From: a virus
IMG/VR virus record: IMGVR_UViG_3300050821_005947
Coordinates: 1-20,758 of that record
DNA: 20,758 bases
Strand: one strand, 5' to 3'
Positions within the stretch are counted from its first letter, which is position 1; each line of letters begins with the position of its first letter. Below the pieces are notes generated by a model, which was not told where the DNA came from, ran no database searches, and saw only the letters and a list, made by a program, of their open reading frames with translations. Position numbers and translations under genes: made by a program. Positions 15,206 to 20,251 of the stretch are shown here, piece by piece.

Positions 15206-16783
15206 GTGTCTAGCCCATTCCGCCCCGTCATCGAGACCCTGTTCAAGATCGTCAACCGTAGTGGCGAGACAGTCCCTTTCGTGCTCAACGACCAACAAGC
15301 ACAGCTCGATGCCGACTGGTCTAGGCGCAACCTCATCACTAAGCTCCGCCAACACGGCGGCATCTCCTCCTATGTCATCGCTCGTTACGCCGCTAAGTGC
15401 ATCTCAATGGAGAACCGCAACTGCGTCCTCGTCAGCCATGAGGCCGAGGCCACCTCACGCCTACTCAACAGGGCGCGGTTCATGGTCACCCACATGCCGC
15501 CTGACATCCGCCCACCGAAGCTCGACCGCGACAGCACCAGGGCGATGTACTTCTCTGAGACCAATTCCTATTTCTACATCGGCACCGCTGGGCAGAAGAC
15601 CTTCGGCCACGGTGACACCATCACGGACTTACATCTGAGTGAAGCTGCTAGGTACTCCCACCCTGAACAGATCCGCGACGGTACATTCCCCGCCGCTGAG
15701 CAAGGCGAGATCACCATTGAAAGCACTGGTGATGGGATGGGCAACTGGTTCCACCAGCAGGCCATGCTCGCCCGCGAAGGGATGGGCTTCAAGCTCTTCT
15801 TCTTCCCATGGGTCGGGGTGCCCTCCTGCACTCTAGCCCTCACTGACATCGCGGCTGAGTATGTGCTCAACAACCTGAGTGAGGAGCTAGAGGAGAAAGT
15901 CCTCTACAGCCTAGGCATCTCCCTAGGCCAGCTCGCCTGGAGGCGCGAGCGCATCGCCGAGTTCGGTGGTGACCTCACAAAGTTCAAGGAAGCCTTCCCT
16001 CGCACCTTCGAGGAGTGCTTCCGTCCGGCCGGCCTCTCGTTCTTCCCCAAGGTCAACTACAAGGAGACCAAGGCTTGGCGACAAGAGGCAAAAGGTTTGC
16101 ACGTCTTAGAGGGCCATCCGCGAGAGCGCGGGCGGTACGTTTTCGGCGCAGACGTAAGCGCTGGCACCGGGAATGACAACTCCACCATCATCGGCTTCGA
16201 CCTAGACCTAGGGGAGCAAGTCCTTGCCTTCGCCGCCAATGACCTCGCCCCGCATGAGTTCGGCCTCCAGGTCAACGAACTTGGTCGCCGGTTCAACCAC
16301 GCCTACGTCAATGTCGAGCGCAACACCTTCGGTCTTATGGCGCTGGAACGCCTTGTTGCTACTTACCCTCTTGATCGCCTCCATCGTGGGTCTAGTGCAG
16401 CTCAATCCAGCCAACAGATCATGGTACATCCCCTCCACAACTACGGCACTCTTGTAAGTGAGTCCACTCGGGGTCTGCTCATCAGCCACGCCAGGATGAT
16501 GCTCGTGGACTGGACCATTCATGACCCGCTCCTATATACGGAGCTAAGCAACTTCGTCGAGAACAAGACCGGCAAGTACGAGGCCGGCCCGGGCACCAAG
16601 GATGACCGCGTCTTCGGCTGTTGCCACGCCCTTGTCTGCGTCGAGAGGGCCGAGATCGCCACCTACATCCCCGTACCGAAGTCCTTCAGGACCACGGTTG
16701 ATCCGTTCTCCTGGGAGGGCCTATTCAAGGGCCACGACGGTCCCTCCGTCAACGAATACGGCTTCTCCACCAGGTTCGGCTAA
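15206..16783 (+). CDS. Terminase large subunit
   Basis: 525 residues from GTG 15206. The ATPase has the terminase-type Walker A KLRQHGGIS (46-54, K-x-R-Q-x-G-x-S form), Walker B ITDLHLSEA (139-147) and coupling motif IESTGDG (171-177). The RNase H-like nuclease has ADVSAGTGNDNS (D316), VNVERN (E371) and DDRVFG (D466/D467) as the acidic metal-binding residues. It powers DNA entry into the procapsid and cuts the concatemer. Full length with all motifs intact. The start has a poor ribosome binding site and lies two bases after the previous stop, so coupled translation is likely. Confidence 0.93.
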   Translation: MSSPFRPVIETLFKIVNRSGETVPFVLNDQQAQLDADWSRRNLITKLRQHGGISSYVIARYAAKCISMENRNCVLVSHEAEATSRLLNRARFMVTHMPPDIRPPKLDRDSTRAMYFSETNSYFYIGTAGQKTFGHGDTITDLHLSEAARYSHPEQIRDGTFPAAEQGEITIESTGDGMGNWFHQQAMLAREGMGFKLFFFPWVGVPSCTLALTDIAAEYVLNNLSEELEEKVLYSLGISLGQLAWRRERIAEFGGDLTKFKEAFPRTFEECFRPAGLSFFPKVNYKETKAWRQEAKGLHVLEGHPRERGRYVFGADVSAGTGNDNSTIIGFDLDLGEQVLAFAANDLAPHEFGLQVNELGRRFNHAYVNVERNTFGLMALERLVATYPLDRLHRGSSAAQSSQQIMVHPLHNYGTLVSESTRGLLISHARMMLVDWTIHDPLLYTELSNFVENKTGKYEAGPGTKDDRVFGCCHALVCVERAEIATYIPVPKSFRTTVDPFSWEGLFKGHDGPSVNEYGFSTRFG

Positions 16784-16789
16784 GGGCTG

Positions 16790-18055
16790 ATGTACCGCAT
16801 CCTCATCATCTCCAAGGAGGGCGACGGCCTCGGCATTGGCCAGCGCCTAGCCCAAGAGGGATGCGACGTTGATGTCTGGGTAGAAGAGGAGCGCTTCAAG
16901 GAAGCCGGCAAGGGCATGGTCAACCGGGTCACCACTTGGGAGCCAGCAAGCAAGTTCGCCGACCTCATCATCCTAGACTGTGTTGGTCTTGGCAAGCTCG
17001 AACCTCAGCTCAAGGCACTCAATAAGCCCATCCTTGGCTGCTCCGCAGTCCTGGACAAGATCGAACTAGACCGAGGTCTAGGAATGGACCTCTTTCGCAA
17101 AGCGGGCATAGCCATCCCTGAGACCCACAACTTCACCTCCACAGCTGAGGCGGACAAGATCGTCCGATCCCTAGAATGGAAGACTGGCTTCGTCATCAAG
17201 CCGAATGGGAACGTAAGTACGGCCAAGACTATGGTCGTCAAAGATCAGAAGCAATGGGACCGCTGTTTGTCGATGATCTCCCCAGACAGCAGTGGCATAG
17301 TCCAAAGGGTCTTGAATGGCATCGAGGTATCCACGGAGGGCTGGTTCAACGGGCGGGAGTTCCTGAAACCGATGAACCACACCTTCGAGGAGAAGAGGTT
17401 CCTGGCGGGCAACCTGGGCCAGAACACCGGCTGCATGGGGAACGTGGTCCTCAACGCCGGGGACGGCAATCGCCTCACGAAGGAGACAGTGGAGCGCCTA
17501 GGTGGTTTCCTCGCTCAGGTCGGCTACCGGGGTCCGTTTGACATCAACTGCATTGTCACCGAACAGGGGGCCTTCGCCCTAGAGGCCACCTCCAGGATGG
17601 GCTACGACGCGGTGGAGGCCTTGGCAGAAGGCTTGAATGAACCCCTTAGCGACCTCCTCTATGACGTAGCTCTTGGCACCAGGACCAAGATGGACCTCAC
17701 CGACCAGACCATGATCGCGGTGCGGCTCTCCATCCCTCCGTGGCCCATGCGCAAGCCCGACAAGGACTCCCTAGGAGAGCCCGTCAATGGCATCGACGAA
17801 AAGACAATACCTCATCTATTCATCACCGACCTGTATCGTGACCGCGAAGGCTACAAGACAGCCGGCGGTGATGGTGTGTTGCTCAAAGCTACCGCCATCG
17901 GAGCACCTCGTGAAACTGACCTCGTCGGTGAAGCTCGCAAGAGGGTTTATCGCCTACTTGACGCCATCTCGGTGTCGTCCAAGCAATACCGCATAGACAT
18001 CGGAGAGCGGGTCTCGGGTGAGGTGAAGCAACTCAAGGAATGGGGCTGGTTGTGA
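16790..18055 (+). CDS. PurD-like ATP-grasp ligase
   Basis: 421 residues from ATG 16790 (AAGG just upstream). The order of motifs follows phosphoribosylamine-glycine ligase. There is an N-terminal Rossmann-like part (MYRILIISKEGDGLGIG), FVIKPNG (134-140, ATP-binding Lys137), GIEVSTEGWFNG (177-188), EEKRF and NLGQNTGCMG (208-217, compare NTGGMG in PurD), and FALEATSRMGYDA (262-274) where PurD has a GluPheAsnXArg metal and substrate block. The Asn is replaced by Thr and the following GlyAspProGlu is absent. ATP-grasp chemistry (acyl-phosphate, then amide or ester bond) is likely, but the acceptor is probably not phosphoribosylamine. Its place between terminase and portal is unusual. A role in base, surface or small-molecule modification is open. 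Confidence 0.7.
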   Translation: MYRILIISKEGDGLGIGQRLAQEGCDVDVWVEEERFKEAGKGMVNRVTTWEPASKFADLIILDCVGLGKLEPQLKALNKPILGCSAVLDKIELDRGLGMDLFRKAGIAIPETHNFTSTAEADKIVRSLEWKTGFVIKPNGNVSTAKTMVVKDQKQWDRCLSMISPDSSGIVQRVLNGIEVSTEGWFNGREFLKPMNHTFEEKRFLAGNLGQNTGCMGNVVLNAGDGNRLTKETVERLGGFLAQVGYRGPFDINCIVTEQGAFALEATSRMGYDAVEALAEGLNEPLSDLLYDVALGTRTKMDLTDQTMIAVRLSIPPWPMRKPDKDSLGEPVNGIDEKTIPHLFITDLYRDREGYKTAGGDGVLLKATAIGAPRETDLVGEARKRVYRLLDAISVSSKQYRIDIGERVSGEVKQLKEWGWL

Positions 18056-18501
18056 TTACAGATTTAGTATACTTCACAAGTAGATGTACTTTGGTTTATA
18101 AGACGAAATTGTTAACTCCTTGTTGGGAATGGCAATTAGCAGTAAACAATAAAGGTTACGGAGTTATAAATGCACGTGGAGGTGGCTCGTCTTTCGCGCA
18201 CAAACGCTTATGGGAACGGCATAATGGGACTGTACCTACTGGACTAGTCCTTGGCCATGTATGTAGAAATGCACGTTGTATTAATCCATTACATGTTAGA
18301 CCAATTACCCCAAAACGAAATAGTGCTGAAACAGATTATGTCCGCCCAATTCAAGTAATGTGTGGAAATGGGCATGTTATGGACGAGGAGAACACATACA
18401 TCTACAAAAAGCGTGGTCTTATTGAGCGTGCTTGTAAGATATGTAGACGGTATAACTTGCAAGTTTCTAGATGGAGGCGGCGTTATGGCGGAAGGTTATA
18501 A
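18040..18501 (+). CDS. HNH homing-type endonuclease (AT-rich insertion)
   Basis: 153 residues from ATG 18040; GTG 18052, overlapping the ligase stop, is the alternative. CWEWQ, GYGVIN, AHKRLWERHNG (His54) and GHVCRNARCINPLHVRP (72-88, His73, Asn82, His85, two Cys) are the HNH_3 fold of phage homing endonucleases. A C-terminal CGNGH and CKIC pair adds a zinc knuckle. Such enzymes cut an uninfected relative's genome to spread their own gene. GC falls to roughly 40% here against about 60% on either side, and codons are A/T-ending: clear signs of transfer. It sits neatly between two genes, overlapping both, and supplies the portal ribosome binding site. Confidence 0.85.
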   Translation: MGLVVITDLVYFTSRCTLVYKTKLLTPCWEWQLAVNNKGYGVINARGGGSSFAHKRLWERHNGTVPTGLVLGHVCRNARCINPLHVRPITPKRNSAETDYVRPIQVMCGNGHVMDEENTYIYKKRGLIERACKICRRYNLQVSRWRRRYGGRL

Positions 18502-20251
18502 GAGCGCTGATGTACCAGATTTAGAATGGTGGATCAACCAGATCACCCAGGGCATCGCCTTTCGCAAGAAGTACGCCTATGAGGAGAAGTGGTCCACATG
18601 GCGGTCATGGAACCGTGGTCAATTTCAGAGGGGCCAGATCCCCGACAACATCTACTTCAAGTTCATCCGCTCTCTCGTCCCCCGGACGTACTTCCGCAAC
18701 CCCTCCATCGCCATCAGCGCCACCAAGCCTGGGCTGGACTACTTCCTCCTCTCCAAGCTCCTTGAACGTGTGGACAACAAGCTCATGGATCACATGGGCA
18801 TCAAGGGGCAGATGAAGTCAGCCGTGCTCAAAGCCACCATGTTCGGCACTGGATTTATCTTCCGGGGCTACGGCTCAGAGTTCGCTCACACCCCCATTGA
18901 CATCACCACCCAGGAGCCCGATGCTGGTACCAGGAAGATGCGCAACCGGGTCGAGTACAATGACCTGATCCGGGACAACCAGCCCTGGGCACTAGATACC
19001 CATCCTGGGAGTGTGATCTTCCCAGCCTACACGCCCAATGTTCACGCTGCTCGATGGGTCTGTCAAGAGATCATCCGCTCCAGGGACGATGTCCTCGATG
19101 ACCCCCGGCTGGAGAACAAGGACGGCCTCGAACAGGCCATGAAGGGCCAGAAGGCTGGCAAGCTCATCGCCTCCGGGATGGATGATAGGACAAGGAGCGG
19201 CATCCGTCTATGGGTGGTGAGGGACAAGAAGACCGGCCTCGTCTTCGTCCTCGCCCCGTACACGCCCAATGGCATCCCCAACACGATGGTCAAGCCGATG
19301 TTCCTGGAAGAGGACAAGCTCCAGCGCAACGGCAGGCTGCCCTGCTATCCACTCATCTTCAACGAGGATGACGAACAGTGCTGGGGCGTCCCGGACAGCA
19401 TCATCATTGAGCCACAACAGTACGAGATCAACGAGATCAACACCCAGATCAGGTCCCATAGGCGAGTGCTGCTCAAGAAGTTCTTGTACCAACGCGGCAT
19501 GGTTGATCCGGATGAGCTAGACAAGCTCCTGGCCGACGACAACGTCAACATCGGCATCGCCGTCCAGGATGTGACCGCTGTTCGTCCGATGGAAGCCGGT
19601 GGCCTCCCCCCTGGCCTAGTCGAGGGCAAGCAGCTCATCAACCAGAACGTCCAGGAACTCCTCGGCTTGGGTGTGAACCAGTTCGGTGAATACGCGCCGG
19701 GCAGTGCCGACAGGTCCGCTACTGAGACCCAAGTGGTGAACCAAGCCTCTCAAATCCGCACTGATGAACGCCGCGATGCAGGTGCCGACCTCATCACAGA
19801 CCTCATCACTGATATGAACGACGACATCACCGAGTATTGGGGTGAGGAGATGTTGGCCGATGTGGCTGGCCCCGCTGGTGTCCCCATCTGGATCAAGTTC
19901 CAACCAGAACTCCTCCGCAACGCCTCGTGGGATGTGAAGGTGGACCCAGACAGCTCCGTGCCGTTGACAAAACAGTACAAGGAACAAAAGGCCCAACAGG
20001 TCTACGCCACCCTCTATGGGAAGAACCAATCTGCCAACCCGGAGGAGCTGACCAGGTGGTACCTTAGTGAGATGTACGGCACCGAGGCTGATAGCATCAT
20101 CATGAACCCGGCCATGAACACCACCCCGCAGAACCCCATGAGCCTGCCCCAAGCTATGCAGCACATCCAGCAGCTCCCGCAGAGTGCACGTGCAGCGGTC
20201 GGCCAACCCCAGGGCAACGTAGTCCCTGGCCCAGGCGCAGTGAGGCGATGA
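18485..20251 (+). CDS. Portal protein
   Basis: 588 residues from ATG 18485 (GGAGG seven bases upstream, inside the HNH gene). The frame is open to 18362 but that part lies in the foreign insertion. The opening LEWWINQITQGIAFRKKYAYEEKW, a central IYFKFIRSLVPRTYFRNPSIAI, a conserved CWGVPDSIIIEPQQYEINEINTQ helix region and an AdrSATETQVVNQASQIR-like stem helix (about 450) are typical of phage portal proteins. Portals form the 12-subunit ring through which the terminase packs DNA. The Pro/Gln-rich end (QPQGNVVPGPG) is probably flexible. Adjacent to the terminase apart from the ligase and HNH genes. Confidence 0.85.
   Translation: MAEGYKSADVPDLEWWINQITQGIAFRKKYAYEEKWSTWRSWNRGQFQRGQIPDNIYFKFIRSLVPRTYFRNPSIAISATKPGLDYFLLSKLLERVDNKLMDHMGIKGQMKSAVLKATMFGTGFIFRGYGSEFAHTPIDITTQEPDAGTRKMRNRVEYNDLIRDNQPWALDTHPGSVIFPAYTPNVHAARWVCQEIIRSRDDVLDDPRLENKDGLEQAMKGQKAGKLIASGMDDRTRSGIRLWVVRDKKTGLVFVLAPYTPNGIPNTMVKPMFLEEDKLQRNGRLPCYPLIFNEDDEQCWGVPDSIIIEPQQYEINEINTQIRSHRRVLLKKFLYQRGMVDPDELDKLLADDNVNIGIAVQDVTAVRPMEAGGLPPGLVEGKQLINQNVQELLGLGVNQFGEYAPGSADRSATETQVVNQASQIRTDERRDAGADLITDLITDMNDDITEYWGEEMLADVAGPAGVPIWIKFQPELLRNASWDVKVDPDSSVPLTKQYKEQKAQQVYATLYGKNQSANPEELTRWYLSEMYGTEADSIIMNPAMNTTPQNPMSLPQAMQHIQQLPQSARAAVGQPQGNVVPGPGAVRR

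Follow-up and report, generated by a model that had tools for sequence, protein, structure and literature searches.

Two haloarchaeal proteins, rrnAC0307 and Hlac_1553, lack GARS_N, the Mg2+ sites, the Asp of the GDPE segment and the N-terminal P-loop, and neither was considered a GAR synthetase (Brown et al. 2011, PMC3261824). In phages, amidoligase/ATP-grasp peptide-bond modules with unknown substrates were described for the LUZ24-like phages and PhiM6 (PMC3890496, PMC6256558). Viral surveys name purD itself as an auxiliary metabolic gene (PMC12043954, PMC11097641). No description of a phage PurD-like protein in a packaging module was found in the part of the literature covered, and an earlier mention may exist in the literature on ATP-grasp amidoligases.

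The window, i.e. the whole stretch of DNA analysed here, is a virus fragment of 20,758 bases from IMG/VR (IMGVR_UViG_3300050821_005947). On its plus strand, positions 16790 to 18055 hold an intact reading frame of 421 amino acids with an ATG start, which was assigned to the PurD-fold ATP-grasp proteins by Pfam/NCBIfam, profile and structure searches. The gene of the terminase large subunit (TerL; 15206-16783, plus strand; phrog_2, E = 3e-12) ends 6 nt upstream of this start. The original prediction had placed the gene between terminase and portal. TerL and a homologue of the portal were found on the two sides, but an HNH endonuclease gene (18040-18501, plus strand; PF13392, 33 bits; phrog_826, E = 3.6e-31) intervenes before the portal, and its 5' end overlaps the final 16 nt of the ATP-grasp gene. 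This free-standing HNH gene occupies exactly the short overlap by which the ATP-grasp stop is joined to the next start in relatives, most of which have no HNH insertion between the ATP-grasp and portal genes. The portal-type protein (18485-20251, plus strand; 18485 is the likely start, the longest reading frame opens at 18362) is a homologue of the protein that is conserved downstream in the relatives. It has no PHROG or Pfam match of its own, and was labelled by position, length and the call made in the original prediction. At the other end of the window, a region on the minus strand (3-971) was judged by eye to be uracil-DNA glycosylase-like; Pfam matches to uracil-DNA glycosylase and DNA polymerase A were obtained in genomes of relatives.

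Pfam analysis of the ATP-grasp protein returned GARS_A with 42.6 bits (cut-off 27) and GARS_C with 19.9 bits, below its cut-off of 34.8, and no match to GARS_N. The NCBIfam purD model (TIGR00877) scored 72.2 bits, about a quarter of the equivalog cut-off of 288. A profile of the family reached solved PurD structures with E = 7e-45, so that the proposed relation to PurD is far above chance. The AlphaFold model of the window protein, built from an alignment of 77 relatives, had a mean pLDDT of 96.5 and a pTM of 0.93. The best 15 PDB chains in a Foldseek search were all PurD, as were the best 13 entries with VIA (Z 31.5-37.5 over 376-394 residues, rmsd 2.8-4.3). Other ATP-grasp enzymes (PurT, PurK, biotin carboxylase) trailed PurD with Z of 26 or lower. 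PHROGs hold no family for the window protein or for its homologue from Manatee Spring. The best viral model in BFVD reached a TM of 0.47, and no PurD-type protein was found among the viral models there. In a phylogenetic tree, 77 family sequences were separated from 13 true PurDs with 100% SH-aLRT support. Since the family forms a separate clade and the motifs on the phosphoribosylamine (PRA) side are replaced, the window protein, for all its predicted full PurD fold, is no GAR synthetase, and the proposal of a ligase other than PurD was borne out. It looks like a putative ATP-dependent amide-forming ligase.

The motifs of the same 77 family sequences were compared with those of 13 true PurDs. 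The predicted ATP-grasp motifs FVIKPNG, NTGCMG and EATSRMG were found at residues 134-140, 212-217 and 265-271. Lys137, Glu179, Glu265 and Arg269 occur in 77 of 77 sequences, i.e. the ATP lysine, the metal-binding glutamate and the phosphate arginine of the ATP-grasp fold are all present; Lys202 and the C-terminal YRxDIG of PurD are retained as well. Along the gene (all coordinates on the plus strand), E92-L-D-R95 (17063-17074) corresponds to E-x-S-K of PurD, with Arg95 (77/77) for Lys (13/13). It is followed by FVIKPNG with the ATP-binding Lys137 (17189-17209; Lys also in 13/13 PurDs), and by the signature G-I-E-V-S-T-E-G-W-F-N-G (17318-17353), comprising Glu179 of the catalytic core and Gly184, Trp185, Asn187 and Gly188, which are retained by the pseudoenzymes described below. 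N-H-T-F-E-E-K-R-F (17375-17401) includes the family-specific Asn196, Thr198 and Glu200, and Lys202; G-Q-N-T-G-C-M-G-N (17417-17443) is the equivalent of GPNTGGMG in PurD. GP-F-D251-I-N253-CIV (17531-17557) carries Asn253 at the third metal-ligand position, L-E265-A-T267-S-R269-M-G-Y-D-A (17579-17611) is the metal and phosphate motif in place of EFNxRxGDPE from the PS00184 region of PurD, and YRIDIG (17987-18004) is the C-terminal motif common to PurD.

The exchanges against PurD are consistent throughout the clade. GGREHA is lost, its R-E-H (12-13 of 13 PurDs) being mostly D-G-L in the family; the Asp of PurD is replaced by Glu200, Tyr/Phe by Asp251, Gly by Asn253, the Asn of E-x-N (13/13) by Thr267, and DPE (13/13) by Y-D-A (Y 66/77, D 56/77, A 62/77). 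Asp251, Asn253 and Thr267 are invariant (77/77). The replacement of Glu-Phe-Asn by Glu-Ala-Thr and the absence of GDPE, both noted originally, are therefore traits of the whole family and no quirk of the window. In profile alignments, Asn253 aligned with a Glu of PurT and a Glu of biotin carboxylase on the strand preceding the metal-binding glutamate, and Thr267 with a Ser of PurT and an Asn of biotin carboxylase. In those enzymes, the aligned residues are metal ligands. Judged from these alignments, the metal triad of Asn253, Glu265 and Thr267 appears to be rearranged, not lost. A changed metal motif had been taken as the sign of a new acceptor. The change of a metal ligand was found, but the exchange of Asn for Thr seems to be compensated by Asn253 and does not indicate another acceptor; better evidence for a different acceptor comes from the loss of the PRA-side motifs GGREHA and GDPE.

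A genuine PurD that serves purine synthesis as an auxiliary metabolic gene would agree with the full-length PurD fold, the C-terminal YRxDIG and the naming of purD in the surveys cited above. It is nevertheless highly improbable in view of the model score of 72 against 288 and the replacement of GGREHA, E-x-N and GDPE; a close match to PurD with all acceptor residues conserved did not turn up. Moreover, 10 of 14 cellular genomes carrying a family member, prophage carriers included, already own a true purD, and no other purine genes were detected when parts of four phage records were scanned with Pfam.

Scanning of IMG/VR with two patterns yielded at least 566 relatives, and the same kind of scan yielded 22 true PurDs; the ratio is only rough, as the scan patterns differ and the contigs are redundant. 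Among 50,697 named phage records, the sole member found was the uncultured Manatee Spring genome MW202796. Named phage records with matches of 21-31% (MT83xxxx, OR84xxxx and similar) were not counted as family after inspection of three. These three (OR846666, MT835991 and MT835784) carry true purD on unverified, unannotated contigs labelled as phage, and may represent bacterial contamination. Cellular members are patchy (one in 148 genomes of one order, eight in 192 of one phylum), and occur as solitary genes amid unrelated housekeeping genes. No recurrent partner was found among the genes adjoining them, with the possible exception of a GNAT acetyltransferase. GNAT-like genes recur near or beside family members in a phage, in gammaproteobacteria and, judged by eye only, in a candidate-phylum genome (L014:15930-16340, L154:11248-11739, L155:11248-11724, L316:2708-3295), which may be chance. 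In one small-genome bacterium, two cellular family members lie in tandem (G318:C3:252306-254942, locus L313).

In the part of the tree that contains the window, the genes of TerL, ATP-grasp protein and portal come in this order almost without exception. The distance between the TerL stop and the ATP-grasp start is at most 60 nt in 32 of 40 loci, and the gene downstream often starts within the last codons of the ATP-grasp gene. As a guard against bias, loci were collected by a portal profile alone. Of the 65 loci with room upstream, 63 had the ATP-grasp gene between TerL and portal; the profile was built from loci carrying the gene, so that this sampling reaches only the nearer portals. In the remaining two, from related phages (L369, L382), TerL directly precedes the portal and the ATP-grasp gene is naturally absent. 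Median pairwise identity across 33 loci was 43% for the ATP-grasp protein, 39% for TerL and 42% for the portal protein, and ATP-grasp distances followed those of TerL and portal with Mantel r of 0.77 and 0.88, respectively (0 of 999 permutations). The suspected link to the packaging block is thereby confirmed. Within one large part of the tree, and only there, the gene holds a conserved place and evolves together with TerL and portal; physical contact with either protein does not follow from gene order alone. In one sub-lineage, a variable gene is located between the ATP-grasp and portal genes (L067:7650-8669, L068:10407-11771, L076:11250-12410); one of these is DUF6932/nucleotidyltransferase-like, the others are without a family match.

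It had also been asked whether homologues always reside beside terminase and portal. This is true of the window's part of the tree, but not of the deeper branches, in which the gene is found at the distal end of the late genes, after putative internal virion proteins and before tail-fibre or lysis genes, nor of the solitary cellular members. The packaging position is therefore a trait of one large group and not of the whole family, and the ancestral protein is unlikely to have had the task of binding TerL or portal.

A ligase for DNA base hypermodification had been suggested originally. The vicinity of terminase would fit this, and ATP-grasp ligase chemistry is plausible for the attachment of amino acids to bases. 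However, the thymidylate synthase/hydroxymethylase family (PF00303) was detected in none of 22 related phage records of 37-52 kb (the control was positive in 9 of 14 genomes), no base-modification genes were found when portions of four phage records were scanned with Pfam and PHROG at E = 1e-5, and pseudoenzymes occupy the same place. The suggestion was not upheld, and we consider such a function very unlikely.

Active-site integrity was scored over the 63 portal-linked genes at 15 positions that are invariant or near-invariant in the family. Fifty genes retain 14-15 of these positions, and 13 are changed at 8-15 of them; no locus falls between one and eight changes. The 13 pseudoenzyme genes are intact reading frames of 356-407 amino acids in the same location between TerL and portal. 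On the portal tree and the TerL tree alike, loss of the active site amounts to four changes, three of which are forced by well-supported branches; it thus arose about four times independently. One pseudoenzyme clade comprises eight diverse members with 100% support and long inner branches. Two close pseudoenzyme pairs gave a dN of 0.11 with a dS of 1.8 or saturated, which indicates purifying selection where it could be tested. A second copy of the gene was not found in the pseudoenzyme records examined, one of which covers 38 kb. Pfam analysis of six pseudoenzymes returned GARS_C only, the GARS_A signal being gone. One pseudoenzyme was modelled with a pLDDT of 92.1 and keeps the PurD fold (Z 28.5-33.1); active members were part of the underlying alignment, and this biases the model towards the same fold. 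Since the pseudoenzymes are intact, in place and under purifying selection, catalysis seems to be dispensable while the protein is retained.

Residues common to active and pseudoenzyme types (Leu5, Ala17, Glu23, Gly184, Trp185, Asn187, Gly188, Phe195, Leu241, Gly248, Ala294, Pro331, Tyr387 and Leu415) may outline a scaffold or interface. Those lost together in the pseudoenzymes include Arg95, Thr182, Glu183, Asn196, His197, Thr198, Glu200, Lys202, Thr213 to Cys215, Asn218, Asp251, Asn253, Glu265, Thr267 and Arg269, and likely outline the catalytic and acceptor pocket. Thr182, Glu183, Asn196, His197, Thr198, Cys215, Asp251 and Asn253 of this set are family-specific.

These data bear on two further explanations. 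The protein might act by catalysis only, modifying a specific virion or packaging protein, with the pseudoenzymes decaying or given an unrelated new role. Operon coupling and the retention of 14-15 of the 15 positions in 50 of 63 loci speak for this reading; we regard it as improbable, since a diverse, fully supported clade of eight pseudoenzymes with long inner branches and a dN/dS well below 1 in the testable pairs do not fit simple decay. Somewhat less improbable, and still rather unlikely, is a soluble ligase of small molecules. It would join an amino acid to an amine such as a polyamine or another amino acid, and release a late-infection metabolite, e.g. a DNA counter-ion or a wall-active compound, without a target in the virion; the packaging linkage would then reflect the timing of expression. 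The closest relatives by fold, PurD, PurT and PylC, use small molecules, solitary cellular members without phage genes occur, and a second phage lineage has the gene elsewhere in the late region. Against this, pseudoenzymes kept in the same place under purifying selection require a non-catalytic role, and conservation and co-divergence of the protein equal those of its structural neighbours.

The explanation we favour, with about even confidence, is that some phage lineages have built a PurD-derived ATP-grasp protein into the core of their TerL-portal packaging/head module, where it serves as a scaffold besides its catalysis. A lineage of purine-synthesis enzymes would have been co-opted by phages, with loss of the PRA motifs and conservation of the nucleotide and acyl-phosphate core. 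Catalytic members, that of the window included, would phosphorylate a carboxylate with ATP and then transfer the acyl group to some amine that is not phosphoribosylamine; most probably, the enzyme would do so when attached to a protein of the head or of the packaging machinery. Lineages with a pseudoenzyme would have kept no more than the part played in binding or scaffolding. A more specific version, which we put forward tentatively as a possibility, is that the active forms use ATP-driven amide ligation to place a covalent modification on a head or packaging protein, and that in several lineages the chemistry was later dropped, leaving the fold in service as a TerL-portal scaffold. The most economical reading is that of two roles in one protein, which would be a putative non-PRA amide ligase and also a structural or binding component of the late module, the latter role outlasting the loss of catalysis.

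If this explanation is correct, phage packaging modules have a component, derived from a central metabolic enzyme, of which no earlier description was found. Its natural catalytically dead versions would separate the two roles of the protein, and pairs of active and inactive forms would make the question directly testable. Many purD calls for auxiliary metabolism in viral metagenomes might then be wrong, which touches claims of virus-boosted host purine synthesis; given the counts in IMG/VR, the purD genes of the two surveys (PMC11097641, PMC12043954) may be members of the family described here.

The fold and the class of chemistry are already known; a PurD-derived core gene of the packaging module with natural pseudoenzymes was not found described. 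The LUZ24-like phages and PhiM6 share with the window family the possession of phage-borne ATP-grasp ligases, but the ATP-grasp protein of the LUZ24-like phage UFV-P2 has 291 amino acids, is encoded among early genes together with an amidoligase and a glutamine amidotransferase and not between TerL and portal, and is not described as PurD-type. For rrnAC0307 and Hlac_1553 the diagnosis is the same as for the phage family; these are cellular archaeal genes, likened here by description only. PurT and AccC are likewise ATP-grasp enzymes that work through an acyl-phosphate and bear a metal ligand on the strand that precedes the glutamate, and PurT has E-x-S instead of E-x-N, but they share only 9-14% identity, use other substrates and give a clearly poorer structural match (Z of 26 or lower). 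With PurD (GARS; PF02844/PF01071/PF02843), the family shares the whole fold, the NTGxMG loop, YRxDIG and the equivalents of Lys137, Glu179, Lys202, Glu265 and Arg269; it differs by the replacement of GGREHA, the Lys of E-x-S-K, the Asp of DHKR, the Asn of E-x-N and GDPE, by its separate clade and by its position in a virion module.
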